NCBI RefSeq assembly: GCF_001440475.1
Contig: NZ_LLYB01000060.1
Span: forward strand, 263,451 to 327,450
Length of the DNA stretch: 64,000 bases
Source of the DNA: Bradyrhizobium lablabi
GTDB lineage: Bacteria; Pseudomonadota; Alphaproteobacteria; Rhizobiales; Xanthobacteraceae
Direction of reading: 5' to 3'
Shown: positions 3,387 to 50,209 of the stretch, piece after piece
Position numbering within the stretch: position 1 is the stretch's first letter
How the letters are laid out: each line of letters begins with the position of its first letter
Program-made: the position numbers and the translations under genes
The notes under the pieces: generated by a model
The model's database searches: none
What the model was told of the DNA's origin: nothing
Seen by the model: the letters and a program-made list of their open reading frames with translations, nothing else

Positions 3387-4121
3387 CTAGATGGAAATCG
3401 ACCCGATGCTGGCTCCGCCGCAGACATAAAGGGTCTGTCCGGTGATGAAGTCGGCATCCGGTGAACTGAAGAAACTGACGGCACGCGCGACGTCGCCGGA
3501 CTCGCCGAGACGGCCGACCGGGATCGATTGCGCGAGCTTTTTTGCGCGCTCGGAGTCCGGCGACATCACGCTTCCGAACATCTCGGTGTCCGCGATCGGG
3601 CCGGGGGCCACGACGTTGACGGTGATGCCGTATGGAGCAAGCTCCAGCGCCCAGGTCCGCGCCATGCCGATGATGCCTGCCTTGGTCGCCGAATAGACAG
3701 TGCGTGTGGTGGCTCCCAGTGCGGCGCGGGAGGACAGCAGCACAATGCGGCCGAAGCGGGCCAGCTTCATGCTCGGCAGCGCCGCCTGCACCAGCGCAAT
3801 CCCTGCCCCGAAATGCAGTTGCGCCAATGCGCCGACATCCTCGTCAACAACCTCTTCCAGCGGCTTCGCTCGGATCGCACCAGCATTATGTACGACATGG
3901 GTGATCGCAGCCTTCGCCGCGATTTCCGACGCCACCTGCCGCGTCGCCGCCGCATCGAGCAAATCGACTTCGTACGACATGAATTGGGGATGGCTCCAGT
4001 CGGGTTTGCGCCGTGACAGCGAGATCACGTCGTAGCCGTCGGCGAGGAAGCCGCGGGCGATCGCAGCACCAATGCCGGTATTGCCGCCGCTGACGATTGC
4101 CGTGTAGGGAAGCGCGGGCAT
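3387..4121 (-). CDS. Short-chain dehydrogenase/reductase (SDR)
   Basis: A 244-residue classical SDR. The nucleotide-binding motif SGGNTGIG is near residue 10, NAGA near residue 90, and the catalytic Ser-Tyr-Lys set is in LLSSRAALG and YSATK. The C-terminus ends with the usual FITGQTLYVCGGAS substrate-loop segment. A GAGG precedes ATG 4121, and the dioxygenase beta-subunit gene ends only 6 nt upstream. In the proposed indole-acetate pathway an NAD(P)-dependent alcohol oxidation such as dioxindole to isatin would need such an enzyme. That role is inferred from position only. Confidence 0.85.
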   Translation of the reverse strand: MPALPYTAIVSGGNTGIGAAIARGFLADGYDVISLSRRKPDWSHPQFMSYEVDLLDAAATRQVASEIAAKAAITHVVHNAGAIRAKPLEEVVDEDVGALAQLHFGAGIALVQAALPSMKLARFGRIVLLSSRAALGATTRTVYSATKAGIIGMARTWALELAPYGITVNVVAPGPIADTEMFGSVMSPDSERAKKLAQSIPVGRLGESGDVARAVSFFSSPDADFITGQTLYVCGGASIGSISI

Positions 4122-4127
4122 CTCACC

Positions 4128-4640
4128 TCACATGAAGAGCTGGATGTTGCCGAAGGCAGCATCGCAATTGATCAGGTCGACACGCTTCAGCTTGATCTTC
4201 AGCTTGCCGTTCTCGACGCTGAGATGATGCGTGGCCCAGGCCGCATAGAGCGTCTGCTCTTCCAGTCGCGTCTCGACATAATGCATCGGGGTCCAGGTGA
4301 CATAACTGTTGGCGGCGGCGTCGCGTGAGTCCACCTGCGGTGTCTGCAGCACGTGATGGCAGCGGCTCTTCGGCTTCTGGCTGAAGGTGCGCGCGCCCTT
4401 GAGCCGCTCGACCCGGATCGAAAGCAGCAGCTTGTCCTCGTACATCAGCGAGCAGGTCAGCCGCGGATCGGTCTGATTCCATTCCAGCGGCATCCAGTAG
4501 TAGGCGTCGTCGGCGTAGAGATCGAGCCATTCGTCGAAACGCTGCTGGTCGATCAGCCGCGCCTCGCGGACCACGAAGTCGATCAATTCCTGATCAGTGG
4601 GAACCGCATTTTTCAGGGGAGCTTCAGCGACCATGCTCAT
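4128..4640 (-). CDS. Aromatic-ring-hydroxylating dioxygenase, beta subunit (IadE-like)
   Basis: A 170-residue small subunit of a Rieske oxygenase, with the SnoaL-like/cystatin-type fold typical of BenB/HcaF proteins. It has the early EARLIDQQRFDEWLDLYADDAYYWMP block and a TWTPMHYVETR middle block, and is of normal family length. It forms the alpha/beta hexamer with the product of the gene directly upstream (1 nt gap) and is structural rather than catalytic. Published IAA-degrading clusters (iad) of Variovorax and relatives contain an alpha/beta dioxygenase pair named IadD/IadE. I assign this protein to that type by context, not by alignment. Confidence 0.88.
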   Translation of the reverse strand: MSMVAEAPLKNAVPTDQELIDFVVREARLIDQQRFDEWLDLYADDAYYWMPLEWNQTDPRLTCSLMYEDKLLLSIRVERLKGARTFSQKPKSRCHHVLQTPQVDSRDAAANSYVTWTPMHYVETRLEEQTLYAAWATHHLSVENGKLKIKLKRVDLINCDAAFGNIQLFM

Positions 4641-4641
4641 G

Positions 4642-5955
4642 TCACATCCCCATCGTCATGAATTTGGTCCAGGCCCGGAACTGGTGGCGCATCGGCCACT
4701 CGCTGGTGCCGTTGACCGCCACGTTGGTCTGCCCGGCTTCATCGGGACTGTAGAGGCGCTGGAGGTTCACCCATTCATTGGCATTCGAGTGCAGGCCCTC
4801 CTGCGCGCGTTCGTACATTTCGAGATCGTCATGGCCGACGATGGAGGTCGGCGCGTTGATGAGGCGGTTGTACATCAGCGTGCGCTCCAGCAGCATGTCC
4901 GGGGCATCGACGAGCTGGAATGTCCAGGATTCCACCAGCGTCTTGTTGGCCGCGATCGGCTTGAAGTGCCGCAATAACTGGATCGGACCCTTGATCATGA
5001 TGTTGGGGAAATAGACGGTGTTGTGCCGGTTTTCGCCGAGGATCGCCTTGGCGCGTTTCTCGCCATAGGCCGCCGTCATCTTCTCGAAATAGCCCGGTAT
5101 GGCCGAATAGTCGGAATGGATCGAGTGGTGCACGCCGGTGTGGCCGTGGCCGTTATCCCAGATCCGGATACCCATGTTCTCGAAGAACTCGTACGGGCTC
5201 ATGAAGGGCGCGATGATCTCGACCGCCATCGGCTTCTTGGTGCCGGGCGGTGCCTTCTTCCAGACCTCGACCACGGTACCGGCGGAGGATTCATGCGCCA
5301 CCATCGGATGGCAGGTGTCAGTCTGGTTTTCGACCAGCATCTTCCAATTGCAATTGTGCATGTAGCGCAGCACGCCGCCGGCGACCTTGAGCTGGCCGAC
5401 TGGGGAGCGATCGATCATGTTGTCGAAACTCGACAGGCTTTCGCCAAAGAACTCCTCGAAGTCGAGGCCGCCGTCGTTGATCTTGGCGAACACGAAGCCG
5501 CGGTAGTTTCTGACATGGCGCACCGGCGCCATTCCGGTCGCGGCGTGGCTCTGCTCGAAGCCGGTGTTCTCGTAGCCCTTCTTCAGGGGGATCGCGAGCA
5601 GCGAGCCGTCGGTCTTGAAGCTCCAGGCGTGGTAGGGGCAGCGGAAGAATTTTCCGGTGTTGCCGCAGGTCTCGGAGGTGATGCGCGTGCCCTTGTGGGG
5701 GCAGCGGTTGTGCAGCACCTTCACCGTGCCGTCGGTGTGGCGGACCAGCAGGATCGGCTGCGTGCCGATCGTGGTACCGTAATAGTCGCCCGCGTTGGGG
5801 ACCTGGCTGTCGTGGCCGACATAGACCCAGCTATTCGGGAACATGTGCTCCATCTCGAGCTGGAACACCTCCTCGCTGACATAGACGTCGCGGTGAACCT
5901 CCTGGTCGCGGACCAGGGCGCGGAGCGCCGCGGCATCGCCGGCATATCGGGGCAT
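4642..5955 (-). CDS. Rieske-type aromatic-ring-hydroxylating dioxygenase, alpha subunit (IadD-like)
   Basis: The 437-residue catalytic subunit binds a Rieske 2Fe-2S cluster through C85-x-H87 and C106-x2-H109. It holds mononuclear iron through H216 and H221 of the NQTDTCHPMVAH motif plus Asp376 or Asp377 in GHDDLEMYE. D213 is the usual electron bridge between subunits. ATG 5955 is chosen because AAGGAGGA stands 5 nt upstream; the frame stays open further upstream to 6111 but overlaps the reductase gene. Electrons would come from the adjacent reductase (5967-6929). With the isatin-hydrolase-like gene at 27406, the best guess for the substrate is indole-3-acetate, oxidised towards dioxindole-3-acetate. 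Another aryl-acid substrate cannot be excluded. Confidence 0.9.
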   Translation of the reverse strand: MPRYAGDAAALRALVRDQEVHRDVYVSEEVFQLEMEHMFPNSWVYVGHDSQVPNAGDYYGTTIGTQPILLVRHTDGTVKVLHNRCPHKGTRITSETCGNTGKFFRCPYHAWSFKTDGSLLAIPLKKGYENTGFEQSHAATGMAPVRHVRNYRGFVFAKINDGGLDFEEFFGESLSSFDNMIDRSPVGQLKVAGGVLRYMHNCNWKMLVENQTDTCHPMVAHESSAGTVVEVWKKAPPGTKKPMAVEIIAPFMSPYEFFENMGIRIWDNGHGHTGVHHSIHSDYSAIPGYFEKMTAAYGEKRAKAILGENRHNTVYFPNIMIKGPIQLLRHFKPIAANKTLVESWTFQLVDAPDMLLERTLMYNRLINAPTSIVGHDDLEMYERAQEGLHSNANEWVNLQRLYSPDEAGQTNVAVNGTSEWPMRHQFRAWTKFMTMGM

Positions 5956-5966
5956 GCGTTCCTCCT

Positions 5967-6929
5967 TCACAGGTCGAGCACGAGTCGCTTGGTCTTCGCG
6001 CGCGATATACAGATCTGCATCACCTTGTTCGACGCCTTCTCGCTGTCGCTCAGGATGTAGTCGCGATGATCGGGGATGCCCTCGATCACAGCGGTCTGGC
6101 AGATGCCGCAATCGCCGCGCCTGCAGTCATGGATCGGGTCTTCGCCGGCCTCGATCAGCACATCGAGGATGGTCTTGCCGGCCGGAATCTCATAGACGCG
6201 CCCGCTGCTCTTGAGTTCGACCTCGAAACTGGCATCGCCGGATTTTTCTTCCGGGGCGCTGAAGATTTCGAAATGCAGCCGTCCCTGCGGCCAGTTCATC
6301 CGCTTGGCCAGCGCGATTGCGGCTTCGATCATCGGCAACGGGCCGCAGAGATAGAGCGGCACCTCGGGGGCGAGTCGGTTCATCAGGCCTTCGAGATCGA
6401 AAAAGCCGCCGGCTTCCTCGTCGGCATGGATGGTCGCGCCGGCGCCGGTCAGCCGCTCGATGTCGCCGAGAAAGGCGAGTTCGCTGCGGCTGCGTCCGGC
6501 GTAATAGAACGAGAACGGTCGCTTTGCCGCGCTCAATTCGCAGGCCATGGTGAGCAGCGGCGTCACGCCGATGCCGCCAGCGACCAGTGCGACTTCGCCG
6601 GCGCTCGCATGAAGCGGAAAATTGTTCGCCGGCGGCGAGATCGTCAGGCGATCGCCGGCCTTGAGGCCGTGCATGAAGGTGGAGCCGCCGTGGCTCTTGC
6701 TTTCCTGCAACACGGCAATGCGATAGGCGGTCGGATGTTCGGAGGCGCGGGGCGATGCGGTCTCGATCAGCGAATAGGAGCGCCGGCCGACATCGGGCAG
6801 GTGGATGTCGATATGGGCGCCAGCGGCCCAGCCCGGCATCGGCGCGCCGTTGGCGCGCGCCAGCACGAACTCACGGATGCGCGGCGTGAGCGCCTCGGCC
6901 TTCGACACCACGACTTCGAATTGATCCAT
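5967..6929 (-). CDS. Oxygenase reductase with C-terminal 2Fe-2S ferredoxin domain (phthalate dioxygenase reductase type)
   Basis: A 320-residue electron-transfer protein in three parts. The flavin-binding barrel has RSYSL at residues 50-54, the NAD domain has GGIGVTP at 118-124 and CGPLPM at 195-200, and the C-terminal plant-type ferredoxin has ligands C269, C274, C277 and C307 (CRRGDCGIC). This order matches class IA phthalate dioxygenase reductase or VanB, which use FMN. It sits 11 nt upstream of the dioxygenase alpha gene and 2 nt after the iorB-like gene, so its job is to pass electrons from NADH to the Rieske centre. Confidence 0.9.
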   Translation of the reverse strand: MDQFEVVVSKAEALTPRIREFVLARANGAPMPGWAAGAHIDIHLPDVGRRSYSLIETASPRASEHPTAYRIAVLQESKSHGGSTFMHGLKAGDRLTISPPANNFPLHASAGEVALVAGGIGVTPLLTMACELSAAKRPFSFYYAGRSRSELAFLGDIERLTGAGATIHADEEAGGFFDLEGLMNRLAPEVPLYLCGPLPMIEAAIALAKRMNWPQGRLHFEIFSAPEEKSGDASFEVELKSSGRVYEIPAGKTILDVLIEAGEDPIHDCRRGDCGICQTAVIEGIPDHRDYILSDSEKASNKVMQICISRAKTKRLVLDL

Positions 6930-12578: not shown

Positions 12579-13706
12579 ATGGCAACGAAAGCTCGTGAAA
12601 ACCACCGGGAAGACGTGGCCGGGCGGGCCAATGTCGAGGATACGCCGGAGCTGCTCGCCTATTACGACGAACTTGAAAGGCTGGAAGCGGGCGCGCTGTG
12701 GACAGTCGCGAACAAGATCGAGCCCTGGCAGCCAAAATCATCCTCCGTGCCGGTCTTGTGGCGCTATGAGGATCTCCGCGCGCACGTGTTACGCTCCGTT
12801 GAACTGGTGTCGCCCGAAAAGGCCGGGCGTCGCGTCATCTATCTGAACAATCCTGGCCGGCGTGACCACGCTGCCGCGGTCGGCTGGCTCTATTCCGGCC
12901 TGCAGGTGATGCACCCGGGCGAGGTCGCTTCCGCCCACGCCCATTCGGCCTCCGCGCTTCGCTTCATCATGGAAGGCGAGGGCGCCTATACCATCGTCGA
13001 CGGGCACAAGATGACGCTCGGCGCCAACGATTTCGTGCTGACGCCGAACGGCACCTGGCACGAGCACGGCGTCTCCAGCGACGGCACGCCCTGCATCTGG
13101 CAGGACGGCCTCGACATTCCCCTGGTGAACATGCTCGAAGCCAACTTCTATGTGGTTCACCCCGACCTGCAGCAGAGTGTCGGATATCCCGTCGACGATA
13201 TGACGCACGCCTGGGGAAGCCCCGGCCTGCGTCCGGCCGGCGCCGAATGGTCGAAGGGATACTCGCCGTTGCTGAAATATGAGTGGGGCCCGACGTACGA
13301 GGCGCTGCAGCGCTACGGCAAGGCCACCGATGGTTCGCCGTATGACGGCGTGCTCATGAACTATGTGAATCCGGTGACCGGGGGGCCGGTGATGCAGACG
13401 ATCGGCGCATCGATGCAGATGCTGCGGCCGGGCGAGAGCACCCGCGCGCACCGTCACACCGGCAGTTTCATCTATCAGGTCGCCAGGGGACGCGGTCACT
13501 CGATCATCGACGGCAAGCGATTCGACTGGAAGGAGCGGGACATTTTCTGTGTTCCGTCCTGGGCCTGGCACGAGCATGTGAATGGCTCAGCCAGCGAGGA
13601 TGCCTGCCTCTTCACCTTCAATGACCTGCCGGTGATGCAGGCGCTCGGCCTCTACCGCGAGGAAGCGTTCGGTGACAATGGCGGCCGCCAGCCGCTCGTA
13701 TCCTAG
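12579..13706 (+). CDS. Gentisate 1,2-dioxygenase-like cupin
   Basis: A 375-residue bicupin of the length of gentisate 1,2-dioxygenases. The first cupin shows HAHSASALRFIMEGEGAYT (about residues 108-126) and then GTWHEHG (about 152-158). The second shows RAHRHTGSFIYQV and SWAWHEH. The His residues of cupin 1 bind Fe(II). These enzymes open a ring between a hydroxylated carbon and the carboxylated neighbour. AGGAGG lies 6 nt before ATG 12579. With RidA before and the FAH hydrolase after it, the natural reading is a gentisate or 5-hydroxyanthranilate-type ring cleavage. Relatives also cleave salicylates, so the substrate is unsettled. Confidence 0.87.
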   Translation: MATKARENHREDVAGRANVEDTPELLAYYDELERLEAGALWTVANKIEPWQPKSSSVPVLWRYEDLRAHVLRSVELVSPEKAGRRVIYLNNPGRRDHAAAVGWLYSGLQVMHPGEVASAHAHSASALRFIMEGEGAYTIVDGHKMTLGANDFVLTPNGTWHEHGVSSDGTPCIWQDGLDIPLVNMLEANFYVVHPDLQQSVGYPVDDMTHAWGSPGLRPAGAEWSKGYSPLLKYEWGPTYEALQRYGKATDGSPYDGVLMNYVNPVTGGPVMQTIGASMQMLRPGESTRAHRHTGSFIYQVARGRGHSIIDGKRFDWKERDIFCVPSWAWHEHVNGSASEDACLFTFNDLPVMQALGLYREEAFGDNGGRQPLVS

Positions 13707-13716
13707 GAGAGCAGCA

Positions 13717-14628
13717 GTGCGTCTTGTTACCTATCGCAGCACGATCGAGGCTGCTGCCCGTCTTGGCGCGGTTGTCGACGATCTGGTCGTGGACGTCGAG
13801 GACGCCGGGCAGCATGCCGGGGTTTCCCTTCCGTCATCGATGCTCGATTTCATCGATCTCGGACCGCCGGCGTTGGCGGCGCTCAAGAAGGTATTGAACG
13901 AAGGCAAGGATGGCTGGCCGGTCGGCGCCGCATTGCCGCTGGCGAATGTCAGGCTGCTGGCGCCGATCCCGCGTCCGCGCAAGAACATCTTTGGCATTGG
14001 CCTGAACTACGTCGAGCACGTCGCGGAATCGTCGCGCGCCCTCGACACGGCGAAGGACCTGCCGAAACAGCCCGTCATCTTCTCGAAGCCGCCGACCAGC
14101 GTCATCGGACCGGACGAAGCCATCCATCACAACAAGGCGATCACGCAGCAACTCGACTGGGAAGTCGAGCTTGCGGTGGTGATGGGACGGACGGCGCGGC
14201 GCGTGTCGGAGGCGGATGCGCTCGGCTTCGTGTTCGGCTACAGCGTGATGATCGACGTCAGCGCCCGCGACAATCGCCGCGCCGGCCAATGGATCTATTC
14301 CAAGGGGCAGGACACCTACGCGCCGTTCGGGCCGTGTATCGTCACCGCAGACGAAATCACCGATCCGCACGCGCTCGACCTCTGGCTGACGGTGAACGGC
14401 GTCGAGAAGCAGCGCTCCAACACCCGTCACATGCTGTTCAAGGTACCGCTGCTGATCGCCGACATTTCAGCCGCGATGACGCTGGAGCCGGGCGACATCA
14501 TCGCGACAGGCACGCCCGAAGGCGTCGGCGCCGGGCGCTCTCCGCAGGAATGGCTGTGGCCGGGCGACATCGTGGAAGCCGAAGTGACCGGCATCGGCCG
14601 GCTCCGCCATCCGGTGGTGGCGATCTGA
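13717..14628 (+). CDS. Fumarylacetoacetate hydrolase (FAH) family protein
   Basis: A 303-residue FAH-fold enzyme. It has IFGIGLNYVEHV near residue 90, EVELAVVMG near 150 with metal-binding acid residues, DNRRAGQWIYSKGQDTYAPFGP near 187, and the C-terminal GDIIATGTPEGVGAG block. The start is GTG 13717, supported by AGGAG 7 nt before it and by the usual VRLVTYRS opening; frames reaching further upstream lie inside the dioxygenase gene. Members hydrolyse C-C bonds of acylpyruvates such as fumarylpyruvate. It follows the ring-cleaving cupin by 10 nt, so it should process that product. Confidence 0.88.
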   Translation: MRLVTYRSTIEAAARLGAVVDDLVVDVEDAGQHAGVSLPSSMLDFIDLGPPALAALKKVLNEGKDGWPVGAALPLANVRLLAPIPRPRKNIFGIGLNYVEHVAESSRALDTAKDLPKQPVIFSKPPTSVIGPDEAIHHNKAITQQLDWEVELAVVMGRTARRVSEADALGFVFGYSVMIDVSARDNRRAGQWIYSKGQDTYAPFGPCIVTADEITDPHALDLWLTVNGVEKQRSNTRHMLFKVPLLIADISAAMTLEPGDIIATGTPEGVGAGRSPQEWLWPGDIVEAEVTGIGRLRHPVVAI

Positions 14629-14637
14629 GAGGCCGCC

Positions 14638-15285
14638 ATGATCTACGACATGGAGACGCTGGAAGCGCAGAATCGCTACAAGATCCTGACGGCCACGGTG
14701 ACGCCGCGGCCGATCGCCTGGATCACCACGCTCTCCGCAAGCGGCGTGATCAATGCCGCGCCTTTCAGCTTCTTCAACGTGATGGGGCATGAGCCGCCTA
14801 CCGTCGCGATCGGGCTTCTTGCGGGCTCGGAACGCTTCAAGGACACGGCGGCGAACATCCTCGATACCGGGGAATTCGTCGTGAACCTCGTCGCCGAGAG
14901 CAACGCCGAGGCGATGAACATCACCTGCATCGATGCGCCGCCGGAGATCGACGAACTGAAGCTCGCCGGATTGACGCCGGCTGCCTCGCAGGCCGTGCGT
15001 CCGCCACGCATCGCGGAATCGCCCGTGTCGTTCGAATGCCGCGTCCTCACGTCGCTGGTGACGGGGCCCCGGCAAACCGCCGTCATCGGCCGCGTGCTCC
15101 GTGCCCATATCGACGATGCCGTGATCCTGGACAAAGAGCGTTGCCATATCGATACGCAGGCGCTGCACCTGATCGCGCGTATGCACGGCAGCGGCTGGTA
15201 CGCGCGCTCCAGCGACCTGTTCCAGATTGATCGGCCGACCTGGGCGGCGTGGCAGGAGAAGAACCTCAAGGTGAATCCCGCATAA
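14638..15285 (+). CDS. Flavin reductase-like protein (FMN-binding split barrel)
   Basis: A 215-residue split-barrel flavoprotein. It begins with the TVTPRPIAWITTLSASG segment that packs on FMN, followed by NAAPFSFFN and a TGEFVVNLV strand. Such proteins reduce flavin for two-component monooxygenases or act on aryl compounds themselves. No partner monooxygenase gene is visible in this operon, so it either serves an enzyme elsewhere or is catalytic on its own. GAGAGG is just upstream of ATG 14638, and the gap from the FAH gene is 9 nt. Confidence 0.83.
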   Translation: MIYDMETLEAQNRYKILTATVTPRPIAWITTLSASGVINAAPFSFFNVMGHEPPTVAIGLLAGSERFKDTAANILDTGEFVVNLVAESNAEAMNITCIDAPPEIDELKLAGLTPAASQAVRPPRIAESPVSFECRVLTSLVTGPRQTAVIGRVLRAHIDDAVILDKERCHIDTQALHLIARMHGSGWYARSSDLFQIDRPTWAAWQEKNLKVNPA

Positions 15286-42720: not shown

Positions 42721-42976
42721 ATTTCAGGTGAGATAGGTCGAAAGTCGATAACGAGAAACGCCGAAATCAGGCGCAGCGTAAGAATATTGCGCCTGACCAC
42801 ATCAGTTCGGCACAGTCTTGCCGACGGGAACAGCGGAACTGAAGCTTAAGCGCCCGGCGACTTGCGATCACGCTGAAATCACGAAGGCCCAAGCAGTGTT
42901 AGGCTCGGGAGTTAGCTGCCAGAAAGTTCGTTCCGAACAGCAATCTGTCAGCTATCGCGAGGTACCGGGGGATGAA

Positions 42977-43303
42977 ATGAGTGCTGAATCGGTCGTCTAC
43001 TATCTGAATCGCGTGCCTGAGAGCGATCCGAATGACCAAACCGAATGGCTTGTAACGGCGTTGGGACAATACACCGGCGCGGAACTGCGCGAACTGCTCT
43101 ATGTGGCGGAAGAGCCTGGCTTCTTTGAACTGATGCGCGGGCTGTTTGCGCTCCCGGACGAGAGTCGTGCTGCCCTGCAGCATTTTCTCGAAACCGGTCA
43201 TCCTCCGGCCATGAAGGCGGGGGTCGACGCGAAGGGACGGTTGACGATCGAGCACGTCACCGACGAGCAACGGGTGAAGCTGCTTCCTGGGATCGCAAAT
43301 TAG
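42977..43303 (+). CDS. Small hypothetical protein
   Basis: A 108-residue acidic protein starting at ATG 42977 behind a GGGGGA stretch (42966-42971). It is predicted helical (LNRVPES, WLVTALGQYTGAELRELLYVAEEPGFFELMRGLFAL) with no signal, no Cys and no membrane segment. I do not recognise the family. Longer upstream reading to 42818 has poor composition. It lies 65 nt before an XRE-type regulator on the same strand. Confidence 0.6.
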   Translation: MSAESVVYYLNRVPESDPNDQTEWLVTALGQYTGAELRELLYVAEEPGFFELMRGLFALPDESRAALQHFLETGHPPAMKAGVDAKGRLTIEHVTDEQRVKLLPGIAN

Positions 43304-43368
43304 CGTCTGTATCTCCTTGAGGTTGTGCTAGGGTCTCCCAGCTTGAAACAGCCCGGGGGAGTCTGCCG

Positions 43369-43818
43369 ATGGCGACGAGAAAGTCTGGCCCGCTCGATGC
43401 GATGGTGGGCACCAGGATTCGGATGTTTCGGATCAACCGCGGCATGAGCCAAGCCCTGCTCGCGGAACGAATTGGCGTTACCTTTCAGCAACTGCAGAAA
43501 TATGAGCGGGGCGTCAACCGGGTCGGCGCCAGCCGGTTGTCGCAAATCGCTTCCGTGCTGGGCGTTTCGGTCGGCGAGTTGTTCGAATCTGTCGGGCCAG
43601 GATCTTCCGGCTTGAATTCGGCGGCTAACTTGCTCGCCGAGCCGGGCGCCTTGCGCGTTCTCAAGGCCTATGCGCGCACGACCAGCCCGCGCGTGAGGCT
43701 CTGCATCGCGAAGCTGGTTGAAAGCATCGCCGATCGAGCGCCCGCGGCGAAGGCCACGCTTGCGCTTTTGAATACTGTCGATCGCGATGAGCGGCGAAGG
43801 TTTCCTTCGCGGGGATAG
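43369..43818 (+). CDS. XRE-family helix-turn-helix regulator
   Basis: A 149-residue protein with one HTH_3 domain at residues 13-70 (RIRMFRINRGMSQALLAERIGV, then TFQQLQKYERGVNRVG and LSQIASVLGVSVGELFE). This is the compact form common in rhizobia (relatives of SinR-like regulators). The C-terminal 75 residues (LKAYARTTSPRVRLCIAKLVESIA) form a helical tail seen in those proteins. The regulator precedes the YcaO/peroxidase region but on its own transcript. Targets are unknown. Confidence 0.85.
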   Translation: MATRKSGPLDAMVGTRIRMFRINRGMSQALLAERIGVTFQQLQKYERGVNRVGASRLSQIASVLGVSVGELFESVGPGSSGLNSAANLLAEPGALRVLKAYARTTSPRVRLCIAKLVESIADRAPAAKATLALLNTVDRDERRRFPSRG

Positions 43819-43877: not shown

Positions 43878-44432
43878 TCAGCCGGTCGCGCGAATCGCAA
43901 GCCGCTCCGGCGGCCTGCTGCCCGGAATGAACTCGCCGATCCAGTCGCGGCGCGTCGCCTCGATATGCCAGGACATCGCCTCGGCCGAATAGGGCGCCGG
44001 ATCAGGAATGTCCTTGCGAATCTCCTTGCCGTCGAGCCAGCCGCAACTATGCGAGTAGCGCGCGTTGCAGAGGAGGTGGATATCGCCGTGGTCCTGCAGC
44101 AGGACATAGCCATCGGCCGGGAAAAACGTGCCGGCAAGTTCGATCGCACCGGGCAACTGACGTACCAACAGGAACGTGCTGGTGGATTGCTTTTCCGACT
44201 CGGAGACCAGCACGCCGACCAGGCTGTGAATTGGCGTTATCGACTGTGGTGCAACCAGCGCGAGAGGCTCCGTGATCGGGCCGGCCGTCGCAATCGAAAG
44301 ATACTCCCCTTCAGGTCCCCAACGGCAGGCGATCAGCCATTCGCGGCTGCGGCCACGAATCAAGGTCGGCTTGGCATAGTCCGATCGGGCAATATCTGCT
44401 GCCATGGCTATGACTAAGGCTTTCGCGAGCAT
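43878..44432 (-). CDS. Hypothetical protein divergent from the YcaO gene, possibly secreted
   Basis: A 184-residue protein starting at ATG 44432 with GGAGG 6 nt upstream. The first 20 residues (MLAKALVIAMAADIARSDYA) could be a weak signal peptide. The body contains an LSIATAGPITEPLALVAPQS strand region, LVSESEKQSTSTFLLVRQLPG and CNARYSHSCGWLDG with two Cys. The family is not recognised. Its start region overlaps nothing, and the YcaO start at 44503 is only 70 nt away on the other strand, so a shared control region is likely. Confidence 0.6.
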   Translation of the reverse strand: MLAKALVIAMAADIARSDYAKPTLIRGRSREWLIACRWGPEGEYLSIATAGPITEPLALVAPQSITPIHSLVGVLVSESEKQSTSTFLLVRQLPGAIELAGTFFPADGYVLLQDHGDIHLLCNARYSHSCGWLDGKEIRKDIPDPAPYSAEAMSWHIEATRRDWIGEFIPGSRPPERLAIRATG

Positions 44433-44502
44433 AAGTTTCCTCCAGGGCGAAGGCGGGACTTGCCTTACGCTTGGAGTCTGCCCGTCAAGTCGTGAGGTCA
44501 CC

Positions 44503-45864
44503 GTGAGCGGTACCGAAAATTCGATGCAAAATTTGTTTGCACGCGCGGCAGCGTTGCTTCTTGGCAACGAATCGGACGCAGGCAGCGATCACGATGCCGA
44601 ACTTGTGCTGCAGGCGCTGGAATATGGCGTTAAATCCAGTGGCCCGATTGATTCGGAGACCGCGAATCGCGCCCATTTGCTGATCGCCGCCTCGCGATTT
44701 TCGCGTGTGTTCGAATTGGCCGCGCCCGATGCGCCTGGCCTGATCAGCTTTGGTGCGCAATTCGATCCGGCACTTGCCGATCCCTTGCATGACGAAAGCC
44801 CCATGGTCGGCGTTTCCGGCGTCGGTCTGACGTTGCAGGAAGCATTCCAGGGCTGCATCGGCGAGGGAATAGAGTATCTCTCTCAATTGCAGACCGGTAC
44901 CGACCTGTTGCACAGGCCCGGCATCGACGATTGGGCCGGGAAACTCGGTCCGAAGACGCTGGAATTGGTCGCCGTGCTTTCGGAACGAAGCATGCAACCG
45001 GGGCGGGTGCAGTCCTGGTTTCGCGCAACGCGCGTAACTGACGGCGGCGAGGTGTTGCTTCCGGCGGATATCTGCCTGCGGCGTCCGCCGGCCGACCGCG
45101 ACTTCGCGCCGCCATATCCCTTGAGCATCGGCTCGGCCGCTGGTCCGTCGCGGGACGCCGCGGCGCTGCACGGCCTGCTGGAATTGATCGAACGCGATGC
45201 GGCCAGCCTGTGGTGGAGAGGCGGTCAGTTGCCGCGATCGATTCCGGTGCAGCATAAAGCCGGCCTCGTGGCGGAAGAGTTGTTGCAGAGGCTTCGCCAA
45301 GGCGCCGCAGCGCAGCGCCGGACATGGCTACTCGATATCACGACGGATATCGGCGTGCCCTGCGTCGCGGCGGTCTCCTGCCTCTCGGATGGTTCAGGTT
45401 TTGCCTTCGGTCTCGCCGCGCGGCCGGCGCTCGAAGCTGCGGTCCGCTCCGCGATTGTGGAAATGTGCCAGCTCGAACTGGCCGATGCCGTCGTCGCAAC
45501 CAAACGCAACGAGCGCGGTGACGGCGCGCTCAACGCACAGGACCGCATCCACCTGCAGCGCGCGGCCATCGATGCCGACCGGTGCAGGCTGCTGCAGCCG
45601 GTGGCCGAGCACGGAGCCCATCTGCCCCTTCCGGCAACTGAAGCGAGCGTTATATTTGGATTGATCGTTGAGCGTTTGGAAAAATTGGGAATCGAGACGT
45701 TTTGTATCGAACTCACGCGCGGGCGCTTCGCCGTTCCGGTGATCCGCGTGATCGCTCCCGGCCTGCAACTCGAGCCATCCGAAATCGTCACGGCCAGGCT
45801 GCAGGATGCGATAGCGCGAACCGGCGGCGGCGCAACCTATACCGGGGGTGTCGCTTTGATATAG
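44503..45864 (+). CDS. YcaO-domain protein
   Basis: A 453-residue YcaO-family protein. ATP-binding acids are in the GEGIEYL motif (Glu121, Glu124) and in LLELIERDA (Glu227, Glu230, Asp232), followed by AVRSAIVEMCQLELADA later. The C-terminus ends TYTGGVALI and lacks the PxPxP tail of azoline-forming cyclodehydratases, so backbone thioamidation, another ATP-dependent reaction, or a partner-dependent role is possible. GTG 44503 follows TGAGGT by 4 nt; ATG 44524 is an alternative. No E1-like or TfuA partner is nearby. A leader-like small protein at 48014 is the candidate substrate. Confidence 0.82.
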   Translation: MSGTENSMQNLFARAAALLLGNESDAGSDHDAELVLQALEYGVKSSGPIDSETANRAHLLIAASRFSRVFELAAPDAPGLISFGAQFDPALADPLHDESPMVGVSGVGLTLQEAFQGCIGEGIEYLSQLQTGTDLLHRPGIDDWAGKLGPKTLELVAVLSERSMQPGRVQSWFRATRVTDGGEVLLPADICLRRPPADRDFAPPYPLSIGSAAGPSRDAAALHGLLELIERDAASLWWRGGQLPRSIPVQHKAGLVAEELLQRLRQGAAAQRRTWLLDITTDIGVPCVAAVSCLSDGSGFAFGLAARPALEAAVRSAIVEMCQLELADAVVATKRNERGDGALNAQDRIHLQRAAIDADRCRLLQPVAEHGAHLPLPATEASVIFGLIVERLEKLGIETFCIELTRGRFAVPVIRVIAPGLQLEPSEIVTARLQDAIARTGGGATYTGGVALI

Positions 45865-45897
45865 ACTGGCCGGTATTAGCCAACCGGTTCCAGAAAC

Positions 45898-48009
45898 ATG
45901 CCGGCCATTGCCAACGCCATGACATCAAACAACGCCGCGGCGGCGCCCGAAAGCGCGCCGCGTCTGTCGGTATCGCTGGTCGGTCGGTTCGGCGTCCGGT
46001 TCAACGGCCGTGCGGTCGAACTGCGAACCCGCAAGGCCGGCGCCGTCCTGAGTTACCTCGCGCTATCGGAGGCGAAGCAGGAGAGCCGCGAGCGGCTGGT
46101 CGGTCTGCTCTGGAGCCGTTCGGACGAGGAAAAGGCGCGTGCATCGCTGCGTCAGGTCGTGCGTGAACTGCGGTCCACGCTCGAGCAGGCCGGCTATGAC
46201 GGCTTCGTCGCGGAACGGCTGCTGGTCGGCCTCGACACCGGGCGAATCGAAGTCGACATCGAAAGCGTGATTCAACTCGCCGAAACCGGGCGCGTTCACC
46301 CGCTGCTGCTCGATACGCCGCAGCTCGACGGCCGGCTGCTCGAAGGGATGGACGATCTCGACCCCTCGTTCCGGGTCTGGGTGCTGGCCAAGCGACAGAC
46401 CATCCATGAACGGCTGATGCGCAGTCTCGACGAAGGCCTGACCTCTGCGAGCGTGCCTGCCGATGCCAAAAAGCGGATCGCGGCCGCGATCGTCAATCTC
46501 GATCCGACCCATGAATATGCCTGCCGCTATCTGATGCGGGCGCATGCGGAAGAGGGCGATACTGCCGGTGCGTTGCGCATCTACAAGGCGCTGTGGGATC
46601 TGCTGGATCGCGACTACGCGATGGAGCCGTCGTCGGCCACCGAAGAACTCGTCGCCAACATCAAGCTCGGCATTCTGGAGCGCGCGCCGGCCGATCGGGC
46701 CGCGTCGGCGGCGAATGACGAATTCGCCGTCAGAATGATCAGAGCGACCGCCGTTCAGCCGGCAGTCCCGATGTCATCAGCGGTCAATGCATCTGCCAAG
46801 ACGCGCCTCGTGCTGCGCCCCTTTGCCATGCATGGCGTCGATGAGGATCACAGCCATCTGGTGCAGGGGTTCTCCCAGCATCTCGCCGCCTGTCTCGTGC
46901 GTTTTCGCGAATGGAGCGTGGTCGACCGTCCGCCGGCTGCGGTCGTGCTTCCCGCGCCGGACTCAGCGCCGCAGTACTGCATCGAGACCACGGCCTATCA
47001 GGCCGGCGCCGAAATCAATATCGTGATGGTGCTCCGCGACGACACCACGGGAATCTATATCTGGAGCGAAAGCTTCCGCCTCGGCCTCGGCAACTGGTTT
47101 GAAACGCAGCAGCGCATCATCCGCCGGATCGCGACGTCGTTGAACGTGCAGTTGTCGACGGAACGGCTGATGCGGCTTGCCGGCGAGCCGGACGTGTCGC
47201 TCGATCTGCACGACCGCTGGCTGCGCGGACAGAATCTCATGTCGAAATTCGATCCCGAAAGCTGGCGGCGGGCGGTCGCGATCTTCCGCGATGCGATCCG
47301 CGACAATCCGGGATTCTCGCCCTGCTACAGCAGCCTTGTGCAGATCAACAACATCGAGCATCTGGTGCATCCCGGGGTGTTTCGCGATCTCGACAAGGCC
47401 AAGGCGACGCTCGAACTGGCGAAGACCGCCGTTCAGCTGGACCCGGTCGATTCCAGGGCACATCTGTGCTGCGGCTGGTCCTATGTGCTGGCGCTTCGCG
47501 AGACGGAGGCTGCCGCGCACATTGAGCTGGCATGTGAGCTCAACGACAATGATCCATGGACGTTGCTATCCAGCGCTCACTACTCGGCGCTTTGCGGATC
47601 GATCGAGGAGGCGCGCCTTCGCGCCGAGCGGTCGCTGGCGCTGTCACCTGCGCCCTCCTATCTGGAATGGGCCTATCACAGCACTGTCCGGTTCTTCTGC
47701 GGAGATTATGAAGGCACCATCGAGGCATGCGATCGCGCGCAGGGCATCAACAAGATCCTGCCGATATGGCGCGCGGCTGCGTTGTTCCAGCTCGGGGAAC
47801 GCGTGCTGGCGCAACAGGAAATCCAGCGCTTTGTGAACGGCCTGCGTTCATTCTGGGTCGGTTCGTCCACGCCGACGGACGAGGCGGCGGCGCGCTGGGT
47901 GATGCAGGCCCACCCGATCAGCGTGAAGGAAAGGTGGGAAGCCCTGCGCCAAAGTTTGCGTGGCGGAGGGCTTCCGGTCGATGGCATCGTTCACCTGACG
48001 CGCAACTAG
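45898..48009 (+). CDS. BTAD/SARP-type transcriptional regulator with C-terminal TPR region
   Basis: A 703-residue regulator. Residues 22-100 form an OmpR-like winged helix (LSVSLVGRFGVRFNGRAVELRTRKAGAVLSYLAL split over residues 23-56), and residues 110-260 the bacterial transcriptional activation domain with helical repeats. Then a domain (LVLRPFAMHGVDEDHSHLVQGFSQHLAACL) seen in adenylate-cyclase-like TPR regulators, and TPR repeats to the end. It has no receiver or kinase. It starts 33 nt after the YcaO stop on the same strand and converges on the peroxidase operon. SARP-type activators often drive natural-product clusters, which supports the RiPP-like reading of this locus. Confidence 0.8.
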   Translation: MPAIANAMTSNNAAAAPESAPRLSVSLVGRFGVRFNGRAVELRTRKAGAVLSYLALSEAKQESRERLVGLLWSRSDEEKARASLRQVVRELRSTLEQAGYDGFVAERLLVGLDTGRIEVDIESVIQLAETGRVHPLLLDTPQLDGRLLEGMDDLDPSFRVWVLAKRQTIHERLMRSLDEGLTSASVPADAKKRIAAAIVNLDPTHEYACRYLMRAHAEEGDTAGALRIYKALWDLLDRDYAMEPSSATEELVANIKLGILERAPADRAASAANDEFAVRMIRATAVQPAVPMSSAVNASAKTRLVLRPFAMHGVDEDHSHLVQGFSQHLAACLVRFREWSVVDRPPAAVVLPAPDSAPQYCIETTAYQAGAEINIVMVLRDDTTGIYIWSESFRLGLGNWFETQQRIIRRIATSLNVQLSTERLMRLAGEPDVSLDLHDRWLRGQNLMSKFDPESWRRAVAIFRDAIRDNPGFSPCYSSLVQINNIEHLVHPGVFRDLDKAKATLELAKTAVQLDPVDSRAHLCCGWSYVLALRETEAAAHIELACELNDNDPWTLLSSAHYSALCGSIEEARLRAERSLALSPAPSYLEWAYHSTVRFFCGDYEGTIEACDRAQGINKILPIWRAAALFQLGERVLAQQEIQRFVNGLRSFWVGSSTPTDEAAARWVMQAHPISVKERWEALRQSLRGGGLPVDGIVHLTRN

Positions 48010-48013
48010 ATCA

Positions 48014-48424
48014 TCAGGCACAGTAGCTGATGGTGTAGTCGCCGACGCGTTCGGCATGTACGCGGAACTTGTCGCTCTCCGGAATGACCGGATCCAGGCC
48101 GTTGAACAGGCGCTTGTAGAACGGCGGAAGCGGATAGGTCGCGCCGGGTTTTTTGAGATTTTCTTCCGAGTCTGCGATCATCACTGCGGGAGGCAGGCGC
48201 ACCACAATCGTGTCCATCTCCTGCTCGATGAATTTTACTTTCTTGAACCGATCGGGGACCGTCATGAACACCTGGGCTTTGGCGAGTTGCTCCTTGAACT
48301 CGTCAACGGTGGTCGGGATCGGGTACTCGTTGTCGTCGTCCAGATAGTTCTTTCCGGTGGACCAGGTCTTCACCAGATTGCCCCAGCGCTCGTGGTTGGT
48401 CACTTGCATTCTTTCGATTGCCAT
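48014..48424 (-). CDS. Small protein with nitrile-hydratase-like leader features, possible RiPP precursor
   Basis: A 136-residue protein starting at ATG 48424 with GGAGAG 7 nt upstream. Residues 40-80 (VDEFKEQLAKA, then VKFIEQEMDTIVVRLPP) resemble the end of NHLP leader peptides, where VVENTxDTxxLVLPP is typical. There is a single Cys, the penultimate residue, in the tail GDYTISYCA. No GG cleavage site is seen. It follows the haem-peroxidase gene by 39 nt on the same strand. The alternative is an uncharacterised peroxidase accessory protein, so the precursor role is a hypothesis. Confidence 0.6.
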   Translation of the reverse strand: MAIERMQVTNHERWGNLVKTWSTGKNYLDDDNEYPIPTTVDEFKEQLAKAQVFMTVPDRFKKVKFIEQEMDTIVVRLPPAVMIADSEENLKKPGATYPLPPFYKRLFNGLDPVIPESDKFRVHAERVGDYTISYCA

Positions 48425-48463
48425 AGCTTCGCTCTCCGGGTTGCGTGAGACGGACTATTCCGC

Positions 48464-50209
48464 TCACAGAAATGCCGGCACGGCTTGCTGTAGTTCAGCA
48501 ATTTCGGTGGTGAACTCCACCAACTGCGCCATGCTTGAGATGTCTGGAATTTCCTGAAGTACGTTTGCCGGATAAAATTCGCGGGAAATGCTTGCCAGCC
48601 GTTCCGCAAGCGAGTTGCCATCGGCCGATCGCGGGTCGCAGGCGAGCGCGCCGAAAATCACTTCCGAAACGATGATCGAACCCAGCGGCCCGAGATGCAT
48701 GCCTTCGGCTTGCGATTGCTGCATCGCCTCGAACAGGATGAAGAACGGAAGCGGCGGGTCGTTCGAAAGCGTCTCGATCTCGTCGGCCGAGAGCGCGCCA
48801 TAGGCCGGTGCGGCCGTCAGCCATTCGCGGAGCATGCCGACGCGATAGGCGCGATCGGCCAGAAGCCGCGACATGGCGATCAATTGCGGCCTGCGATTGC
48901 TGATCTCGTCAATCAGCGCGTCCACCGACCACATGCCGGCGAGCCCCGCGCCGAGCAGGTCGCGATAGAGCAGGCCTACGCGCTCGGTCTCGTCGAACGC
49001 CGGAAAGATCTGGTCGTTCCCCAGTCCGTCGCTGAGATACGGTCCGATGCGGCGGCTGAAATTCGGTCTCGATCCGTTGATCTCGAAGAAGCGCGACCAC
49101 TGCACCATCCATGTCTCGTCGAGCGGCATGTTGACGGGATCGTTGGCCGAAGACTTCTCGAGCGTGTTGTTGAGATCGTGCAGCGACAGATCGTTGATGC
49201 GATATTCGTGGCGCACCATGGCGTGGCCGAAACGAAACGCGCCGTGCGAGAATTCGAACGGGATTTCCCAGTCGCCGATCGCAAAGCCTTCCGGAGCAGA
49301 GCGATCGATGAAATCCGGATTTGGACCTTCATAGACCCGGTAGATCGCCGGATGGATCACCCGGCGCATCAGGTCCTTGCGGAGGATGTTGTGATAGATC
49401 GCCGTCAAGGCCTCGCGGGCGCAGAGGAAGCGCTTGTAGGCGGCGCCGAACCTGGCGTTCGGCCCGGCGCTGTCTTCCTGGCGGCGAATGATATCGACCA
49501 GCCCATTGTGCAGCAGCGCGAATAGCGCCGTGAGCTGCGACATGACGGCATGATCGTCATTGCGCGGATCGGCAACCAGCGCCTCGGTGAGCGCAACGCG
49601 TACTCCCGTAATGCTACGGTCAATGCCCGTTACGTTTTCGGCGGCGCTGCGTGCGATGTCGCGAAACGGGCAGCCGGTCGCAGGCTCGTTTTCTTTCCAG
49701 CGCATGCGCCCGAGCCGCAGCTTGGTCCGGCGATCGTCGTTCGGCGCATCGAGCGCGTAGATGTGCGGCGATCCGACGGGGCCGTTTCCGAACAGGGTTT
49801 CCAGTCGAAGCGGCGTGCGGCGGGCGTTGGCGGTGCCGCCGCCGAGGCCGCCGGCAACCGAGAGAGGGATCGCCGAATGCACCAGATCGTGCGCAACGAA
49901 CTGCAGCAGGTAGGTATACCCGGAGGGCATCCGCGGGTTTTCCCAATACTCGGCCGACCCGTCGGCATGCGAGGGCCAGCGTATTGCGGCGTCCATCCGT
50001 CGCGACAGGCGGTGCATCAGCCTTCGCAGGTCCGGCACGATCGCGGGCGAACTTAGGGGATCGACACCGAAGGCGCGGAAGCGCTGCGAGGGGGCAGGAC
50101 TGCCAAGGAAATGGCGAAAGCCGGGCGCTGCTGGCGATCGAACAAAACCGCATGCATCGATTTCGGAAGTCCGCAGAGATGATGCTTCAGAGACTTGCTG
50201 CACAGCCAT
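48464..50209 (-). CDS. Animal-type haem peroxidase
   Basis: A 581-residue protein of the peroxidase-cyclooxygenase superfamily. The distal motif LLQFVAHDLVHS carries His107, the catalytic Arg is in VADPRNDDH (Arg216), and the proximal motif FRFGHAMV carries His329. The long helical C-terminal half ends with the family-like block SIIVSEVIFGALACDPRSAD. ATG 50209 is chosen; upstream extension to 50308 lacks support, and the ribosome-binding site is weak. No signal peptide is apparent, so a cytoplasmic or non-classically secreted enzyme is suggested. It is the first gene of a two-gene operon with the leader-like small protein. Confidence 0.87.
   Translation of the reverse strand: MAVQQVSEASSLRTSEIDACGFVRSPAAPGFRHFLGSPAPSQRFRAFGVDPLSSPAIVPDLRRLMHRLSRRMDAAIRWPSHADGSAEYWENPRMPSGYTYLLQFVAHDLVHSAIPLSVAGGLGGGTANARRTPLRLETLFGNGPVGSPHIYALDAPNDDRRTKLRLGRMRWKENEPATGCPFRDIARSAAENVTGIDRSITGVRVALTEALVADPRNDDHAVMSQLTALFALLHNGLVDIIRRQEDSAGPNARFGAAYKRFLCAREALTAIYHNILRKDLMRRVIHPAIYRVYEGPNPDFIDRSAPEGFAIGDWEIPFEFSHGAFRFGHAMVRHEYRINDLSLHDLNNTLEKSSANDPVNMPLDETWMVQWSRFFEINGSRPNFSRRIGPYLSDGLGNDQIFPAFDETERVGLLYRDLLGAGLAGMWSVDALIDEISNRRPQLIAMSRLLADRAYRVGMLREWLTAAPAYGALSADEIETLSNDPPLPFFILFEAMQQSQAEGMHLGPLGSIIVSEVIFGALACDPRSADGNSLAERLASISREFYPANVLQEIPDISSMAQLVEFTTEIAELQQAVPAFL

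Follow-up and report, generated by a model that had tools for sequence, protein, structure and literature searches.

A conserved YcaO and haem peroxidase cassette around a small protein with an invariant C-terminal cysteine suggests a protein-maturation system in Bradyrhizobium and relatives

A four-gene locus in Bradyrhizobium lablabi

The DNA analyzed here is a 64,000-nucleotide stretch of the 8.8-Mb genome of Bradyrhizobium lablabi (contig NZ_LLYB01000060.1, positions 263,451 to 327,450), referred to as the window throughout. Its positions 44503-50209 hold open frames for a YcaO protein, a regulator of the SARP (Streptomyces antibiotic regulatory protein) type, a 136-residue protein and an animal-type haem peroxidase. 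A first-pass annotation of the window had named these four genes as a possible new locus for ribosomally synthesized and post-translationally modified peptides (RiPPs), and open frames and domain matches place all four where it had put them. The YcaO gene (44503..45864, forward strand; PF02624) encodes a stand-alone protein of 453 residues, a proposed ATP-dependent backbone-activating enzyme. The gene for the 703-residue regulator (45898..48009, forward strand) starts 33 bases further on. On the reverse strand, the peroxidase gene (48464..50209, ATG start at 50209; recognized by profile matches and catalytic residues) is followed after 39 bases by the gene for the 136-residue protein (48014..48424). 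This small, folded protein is the proposed substrate of the set and carries a stretch at about residues 17-86 that resembles nitrile hydratase leader peptides (NHLP), as judged from its homologues, an AlphaFold2 model and a profile match described below. Its C-terminal tail, RVGDYTISYCA followed by the stop codon, occupies positions 48014..48049.

Conservation and linkage of the cassette

Comparison with other genomes confirms that the four genes form a conserved cassette. Of 100 genomes searched, 23 (the own genome among them) encode the small protein, with 18 carriers among 59 other genomes of the genus and four among 40 genomes from other families. These amount to 25 matched places, 22 of which were fetched with their flanks. 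YcaO and a peroxidase are present in all 21 loci L028-L048 and the SARP gene in 20 of them (it is missing from L042), while the 22nd flanked locus, L049, lies on a contig of 7.9 kb that breaks off within the SARP gene and shows no YcaO. Among 33 loci from named records, a set that overlaps with the flanked loci in strains so that the counts are not independent, the peroxidase is found in 33, SARP in 32 and YcaO in 31; the two loci without YcaO are contigs of 7-8 kb ending inside SARP. L043 and L082 are two handles for one contig, which begins 61 bases ahead of the small gene; the cassette peroxidase would lie off this contig, and the peroxidase counted there belongs to the unlinked type discussed below. 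All four genes were also matched in seven more loci, of which four belong to distant genomes. Linkage of YcaO with the peroxidase, one of two points whose failure the first-pass annotation would have taken as refutation, is thus conserved in the flanked, the named-record and the further loci.

The named-record loci come from Bradyrhizobium, Belnapia, Rhodovarius, Craurococcus and metagenome-assembled genomes. Belnapia, Rhodovarius and Craurococcus are presumably Acetobacteraceae, and the cassette ranges over Bradyrhizobium, other families of the same order and Acetobacteraceae. The nearest named matches of the small protein, at 98-99% identity, lie in Bradyrhizobium (B. valentinum and two other strains). 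In an even sample of 385 genomes of the class, the small protein occurs in four, and the top tier of peroxidase matches (at least 591.5 bits, the next at 236.2) in the same four; in an even sample of 398 genomes of the phylum it occurs in six, again the same six that hold the top peroxidase tier (at least 419.8 bits, the next at 297.0). The peroxidase searches scored at most three candidates per genome, and counts for lower tiers are lower bounds. A search of plasmids with the small protein as query gave no match; a diverged homologue on plasmid NZ_CP139859.1 was reached through its YcaO and peroxidase.

In 61 of 68 loci, one uninterrupted YcaO frame covers at least 75% of the model; the remainder are three short contigs without YcaO, one gene cut by a contig end and three disrupted genes. 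Disruption takes the form of two frames in L034 and L038 and of remnants only in L097, all three from single-contig or near-complete assemblies. Wherever both are seen, the cassette peroxidase gene has the small gene as its immediate 3' neighbour. When nine regions were compared, only the cassette families recurred in more than two, and no protease or exporter was constant; besides the cassette genes, four families recurred in two regions each, two of them only within the two copies of one genome. Two divergent cassette copies are present in assembly G022 (L042 on G022:C16 and L045 on G022:C12) and in assembly G034 (L040 and L043), and the copy without SARP, L042, is also seen as L080 in Bradyrhizobium betae.

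A small folded protein with an invariant tail

The small-protein family comprises 63 sequences, 46 of them distinct. R126, Y130 and C135 are invariant in all 46, as are P37, P78, Y97, P100 and Y103. Their last Cys occupies the penultimate position in 45 of the 46 and the third from last in the other, and 36 have no other Cys. In the window protein it is the sole Cys, residue 135 of 136, as had been noticed from the window alone. A plasmid of Mesorhizobium huakuii encodes a homologue that has diverged further and ends RLGDYVMSRCK, so that Thr131 is dispensable. That homologue is annotated as a hypothetical protein; its neighbours are a SARP-like 'hypothetical protein' on one side and a 'peroxidase family protein' on the other, and beyond these lies a 'YcaO-like family protein'.

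AlphaFold2 predicts a mainly helical small protein (mean pLDDT 87, last block 69) with helices at residues 11-23, 40-49, 80-91, 101-107 and 116-132. Twelve family members compared with Pfam and NCBIfam at E≤10 gave no meaningful match (best E 0.08 and 0.18). A fold search of the PDB returned ten matches at E≤10, none of them meaningful (best E 3.8), and none of 26 chains compared with the model reached Z 2. Because the C-terminal tail is invariant and the gene adjoins the peroxidase gene, the small protein looks like a substrate. This sequence evidence supports the role suggested for it in the first-pass annotation, and we infer that the small folded protein is the substrate of the cassette enzymes.

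YcaO without the usual partners

The YcaO protein matches PF02624 with E 9.1e-48 (on a longer frame) and TIGR03604 SagD with 112 bits, below the cut-off of 219. The solved proteins nearest to it by sequence are TruD (E 2.3e-16) and LynD (E 3.6e-14), both azoline-forming, and a segment of the form SxGxAAG...EL.ERD..LWW aligns to TruD and is largely invariant across 14 cassette YcaOs.

The cassette resembles ordinary loci for thiazole/oxazole-modified microcins (TOMMs), in which a YcaO of the same superfamily lies beside an oxidoreductase of the SagB/ThcOx type; some of these YcaOs lie in a protein annotated as TOMM leader-binding. Comparison loci were taken from Bradyrhizobium sp. 155, Methylovirgula, R. 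leguminosarum and L. plantarum, among others. SagB/ThcOx proteins are flavin enzymes, and an FMN dehydrogenase of the SagB type occurs in many TOMM clusters, though not in every one, whereas the oxidase of the cassette is a haem peroxidase. In six of nine ordinary YcaO control loci, annotation or similarity reveals a SagB/ThcOx or nitroreductase-type enzyme: four annotated SagB/ThcOx proteins, one nitroreductase-family protein and, in L252, a tblastn match to SagB. Against 69 cassette loci, tblastn with four SagB sequences and one nitroreductase-family sequence as queries gave no match; as a control, the SagB queries matched all six ordinary loci searched, four of which are the queries' own and two (L252 and L259) cross-matches. 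Four TOMM leader-binding sequences (tblastn) likewise matched none of the 69 loci, a result that a strongly diverged RiPP recognition element (RRE) could escape; in the control each found the locus it came from and as many as two or three more. TfuA, the partner of YcaO in thioamidated RiPP systems, was not found in a Pfam scan of ten window proteins around YcaO. L252 itself (Thalassospira marina plasmid NZ_CP024200.1) shows LanM, a thiocillin-family RiPP, a YcaO/leader-binding protein and an annotated cytochrome P450 in a row.

Two further kinds of YcaO and peroxidase set

Peroxidases of lower similarity are common, mostly without a neighbouring YcaO. Through them two further kinds of set were reached, which we term types B and C, the window cassette being type A. 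Type B is present in three of seven searched genomes of one family (L201, L204 and L208) and consists of YcaO and, next in order, a peroxidase, plus a divergent short protein that terminates in HLIR[CS]CxxC; in L201 it adjoins a cyclase-TPR regulator with a sub-cut-off match to TIGR04510, 'putative peptide modification system cyclase'. Type C was seen in L246 and on plasmid CP023455.1 (a paddy-soil Rhodobacteraceae strain), where the peroxidase gene is followed immediately by that of a short protein ending RCR, and YcaO and a regulator are encoded close by; this regulator shows cyclase, BTAD and TPR parts by Pfam in L246 and is cyclase-like by eye in CP023455.1. Among 33 plasmid records with such a peroxidase, judged from the best place per record, YcaO lies within 5 kb only in CP023455.1 and NZ_CP139859.1. 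A gene resembling that of the formylglycine-generating enzyme (SUMF1; PF03781, E 8.3e-81) lies a few kb from the type C set at 4063-5055 on the reverse strand of L246 and may be unrelated to it.

All five type B and C short proteins end in Cys or Cys-x, compared with four of 222 other gene-like open reading frames of 90-200 residues in the fetched loci, one of the four being an NHLP precursor. The latter count was derived by subtraction (48 of 266, minus the 44 cassette proteins counted), and frames of related loci are not independent; the B and C tails were also examined with Cys in mind, and we treat them as supporting, non-blind evidence. Type C proteins are alike (30%, E 2e-4) and unlike types A and B, and a search through 111 genomes of the same family brought up no relative of the type C short protein other than itself. 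YcaO, a peroxidase that lacks the haem-ester Asp described below, and a short protein whose C terminus carries a Cys recur in all three kinds of set. A tree of YcaO proteins separates A from the rest (80/52) and places B close to the YcaOs of ordinary TOMM loci (87/62), each with weak support.

The peroxidase lacks the haem-ester aspartate

The longer peroxidase frame matches An_peroxidase (PF03098) with 23.3 bits, just below the Pfam cut-off of 25, and a 15-row peroxidase profile matches lactoperoxidase, eosinophil peroxidase and myeloperoxidase at E 2e-9 to 7e-3. Besides this similarity, the window protein keeps the catalytic residues of the peroxidase-cyclooxygenase superfamily to which these enzymes belong, namely the distal Q103 and H107, D108, R216 and the proximal H329. 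The residue before the distal His, which we take from the QxxDHD motif to be the Asp that esterifies haem in mammalian enzymes, is Ala106 in the window protein, and the site of the ester Glu is Asp219. Unlike mammalian haem peroxidases, the window protein thus has no haem-ester Asp, and no N-terminal signal peptide is seen by eye, so it is probably located in the cytosol.

The ester Asp is absent from 20 of 21 rows of YcaO-linked peroxidases and present in 25 of 27 unlinked ones. At its site, 15 of 16 A rows have Ala, Thr, Gly or Phe, all three B rows Asn or Thr, and both C rows Phe or Ala; the single Asp-bearing A row groups with unlinked peroxidases, and its contig ends before the proper gene. 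The ester Glu is kept in 26 of 27 unlinked rows, three of three B rows, two of 16 A rows and neither C row. Haem ester bonds and their role in redox properties are treated in PMC9138014. In the peroxidase tree, rooted at the midpoint only and with the long rows A_L251, A_L094 and C_L250 placed unsurely, 14 A rows fall together and B lies among unlinked peroxidases. This arrangement suggests that the partnership with YcaO and the loss of the Asp probably arose more than once. In two places a second, Asp-bearing peroxidase adjoins the cassette YcaO: at 13011-14855 on the forward strand of L095 (G725:C40) and at about 4936-6390 on the forward strand of L043/L082. Both group in the tree with the peroxidase of G574:C100 (L233) and were, on that basis, set apart as unlinked type.

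Relation of the small protein to NHLP leaders

The first-pass annotation had likened the centre of the small protein to NHLP leaders, and the likeness is a real pattern. The family model TIGR03793 itself gave no match to 12 small-protein members at E≤10. Profile comparison, the second point on which the first-pass annotation would have accepted refutation, detects a resemblance that is weak directly and stronger by way of type B. Aligned with a profile of 41 NHLP leaders (hhalign), the small-protein family gives P 0.0028-0.0029 over about 27 residues, a score equalled in one of 500 column shuffles; an earlier NHLP profile of 11 sequences gave P 0.062. Type B matches the NHLP profile with 96% probability (P 1.3e-9; none of 200 shuffles as high) and the window family with 42% probability (P 2.6e-4 over residues 17-86; again none of 200), and two of the three type B short proteins match the NHLP hidden Markov model (HMM) unaided. 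From these alignments, the small protein probably descends from an NHLP-type leader, unproven as this descent is. A variable core after a GG-type site is not seen: R, Y and C of the tail are fixed in all 46 sequences, and the window sequence has no GG.

TIGR03793 finds two matches in the own genome, both within one 224-residue frame on another contig. Weak matches occur in 80 of 150 genomes of the order, above the cut-off in two, mostly in open frames of more than 200 residues, as expected for nitrile hydratase alpha subunits. Five genomes of genus g523 (L129-L132 of G903, and relatives) have 11-13 matches each, spread over several contigs in most.

A proposed route of C-terminal cysteine maturation

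The reading that we hold, with somewhat more confidence than doubt, is that the locus is a RiPP-type protein-maturation cassette in which YcaO activates the backbone at the C-terminal Cys of a folded substrate and the peroxidase oxidizes the product. The N-terminal two thirds of the small protein would serve as a diverged NHLP-like leader domain, with the C-terminal ten residues as the modification site. With ATP, YcaO would activate the backbone amide before Cys135, giving probably an azoline, most simply a thiazoline formed from residues 134-135. The peroxidase, with H2O2, would then oxidize this product, either from thiazoline to thiazole or in another Cys-centred oxidation, and would thereby replace the flavin dehydrogenase that serves in ordinary TOMM clusters. 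Control of the set would fall to the SARP regulator, and an all-beta protein encoded nearby would be accessory. Both the order of steps and an azol(in)e product are what we infer; YcaO acting before the peroxidase is the most economical account of three kinds of set that share YcaO, a peroxidase lacking the ester Asp and a C-terminal Cys. The tail would not necessarily be released. Given that no protease or exporter is constant in the nine regions, the modified Cys may function while bound to the protein.

A more far-reaching version is that these sets represent an undescribed class of YcaO systems, in which an animal-type haem peroxidase in place of a flavin dehydrogenase completes a modification at the C-terminal Cys of a folded protein, the product being kept as a working prosthetic group bound to the protein. 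The partnership would then have come together on at least two occasions, with the ester Asp lost on each. We advance it tentatively and would expect it to fail sooner than hold.

The NHLP-type TOMM clusters (MprC/MprE, for example) are among the known systems closest to the cassette, in which a folded, possibly NHLP-derived domain precedes the putative site. In such clusters, YcaO acts with a long folded NHLP leader via protein-protein contacts, as described in PMC12455567, and the cassette may work in the same manner, with a folded leader and YcaO. It differs in that neither a leader-binding protein nor SagB is detected, an animal-type peroxidase being present instead, and in its invariant rather than hypervariable tail. 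As a leader-binding partner, a flavin dehydrogenase and a match at the NHLP cut-off are all lacking, we do not file the cassette as a member of that group. Pearlins, which lead to 3-thiaglutamate, also pair a scaffold protein with chemistry at a C-terminal Cys. That Cys is added by a PEARL (peptide aminoacyl-tRNA ligase) enzyme, whereas the cassette Cys is encoded, and YcaO and a peroxidase accompany it.

The first-pass annotation had known of no animal-type peroxidase in such a gene set, and our search of the open-access literature agrees: YcaO together with 'heme peroxidase' returned no paper in open-access full text, which is no proof of absence. The word 'peroxidase' does not occur in the TOMM/NHLP papers PMC2887384, PMC4603692 and PMC12455567, and PMC8776678, as far as its accessible text goes, does not describe a YcaO-peroxidase set.

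Alternatives and weight of the evidence

Oxidation of Tyr is a classical activity of the peroxidase superfamily, and Y130 and C135, five residues apart, are both invariant in all 46 sequences. A tyrosyl radical made by the peroxidase might accordingly crosslink Tyr130 and Cys135 as a thioether, or dimerize proteins through dityrosine, the change made by YcaO being a separate one. We regard this as unlikely, since type B tails have no Tyr near the Cys and the nearest Tyr in type C lies ten residues before it; Tyr130-Cys135 crosslinking is possible for type A and is not general across the types. The proposal of the first-pass annotation that the peroxidase oxidizes Tyr or Cys of the tail is thereby weakened for Tyr as a necessary target, while oxidation at Cys is retained in the YcaO-then-peroxidase route.

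Similarly low is our expectation that the product is a protein-bound thioamide, a sulfenate or another Cys-centred metal site on a permanently folded protein, with an oxidized Cys like that of nitrile hydratase, in place of an azol(in)e. Here the tail adjoining a folded domain and the missing constant protease or exporter would fit, and nitrile hydratase has oxidized Cys ligands according to PMC2887384. The kinship of the cassette YcaO to azoline-forming enzymes among the solved ones and the absence of TfuA from the scanned window proteins argue against it.

Least likely, by a little, is an oxidative-stress locus in which the small protein, instead of being a substrate, serves the peroxidase as binding partner, inhibitor or sensor, with YcaO acting elsewhere and losable: peroxidases often act in peroxide defence, the small gene keeps its place directly 3' of the peroxidase gene, and both stay open in the three of 68 loci where YcaO is disrupted, yet this account leaves unexplained the invariant Cys at the extreme C terminus, the otherwise constant YcaO and the C-terminal Cys in unrelated partners.

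Several observations weigh against the route in which YcaO and then the peroxidase act on the Cys. TOMM YcaOs usually have an RRE-type leader-binding partner, and none was found in the 69 cassette loci. YcaO is disrupted in three of 68 loci, with small protein and peroxidase open there. Of the nine ordinary YcaO loci, two have no dehydrogenase in the stretch seen and one is unannotated, and a P450 query from L252 matched one cassette locus, L048. Across 29 neighbourhoods of lower-tier peroxidases, some of them short contigs, YcaO was detected only in L201 and L246, and all three type B peroxidases keep the ester Glu. The gap in peroxidase scores is partly built in, as profile A5 holds rows of the window, G330, G192, G195 and G725; G099 (419.8 bits), G655, G671 and G737 lie outside that profile. 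As to the leader, the small-protein family resembles NHLP weakly in direct comparison (P 0.0029), and Foldseek returned neither an NHLP nor a nitrile-hydratase fold though the PDB contains such structures. Taken singly, one of the three type B proteins (L208) escapes the NHLP HMM, and type C proteins resemble neither NHLP nor the window family. NHLP cores are called hypervariable in PMC4603692, whereas the small-protein tail is nearly invariant.

The conserved set of YcaO, peroxidase and invariant Cys points to an undescribed chemical remodelling of a protein C terminus. If the YcaO-then-peroxidase route is correct, YcaO chemistry would gain an oxidation step driven by H2O2, and a small system of three proteins would exist for modifying an encoded Cys at the C terminus of a folded protein. 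Some bacterial animal-type peroxidases would also acquire a role, in a superfamily (that of myeloperoxidase) whose haem enzymes are known for making oxidants and for crosslinking. More sets may be sought by a simple rule: YcaO, a peroxidase and a neighbour ending in Cys or Cys-x.

Regulator, accessory gene and flanking genes

The regulator comprises a winged helix, BTAD and a HilA/CadC-like C-terminal part. BTAD matches with 39.2 bits (E 1.1e-9) and the winged helix, Trans_reg_C, with 23.4 bits, below its cut-off of 26.2; the HilA family (E 2e-5) and CadC (E 3e-3) both score far below their cut-offs.

Divergent from YcaO lies the accessory gene (43878..44432, reverse strand, ATG at 44432), which travels with many cassettes and encodes a 184-residue protein predicted to be all-beta. 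The 70-base intergenic stretch between the two genes (44433..44502) is, judged from its position alone, a probable regulatory region. Accompanying the cassette in all 13 loci of close relatives (L028-L040) as well as in L043 and L045, the accessory gene is absent from L041, L042, L044, L046-L048, L074, L077, L080 and L083. It is also found in five of seven Acetobacteraceae loci, there on the other side of the peroxidase. Its protein has no match in Pfam or NCBIfam; the best AlphaFold2 model has pLDDT 80 (five models, 45-80), and a fold search with it returned generic barrels (best Z 8.2). Further out, a small conserved protein gene and a helix-turn-helix gene (42818-43818 of the window) flank the cassette in most Bradyrhizobium loci and were not detected beside distant cassettes.

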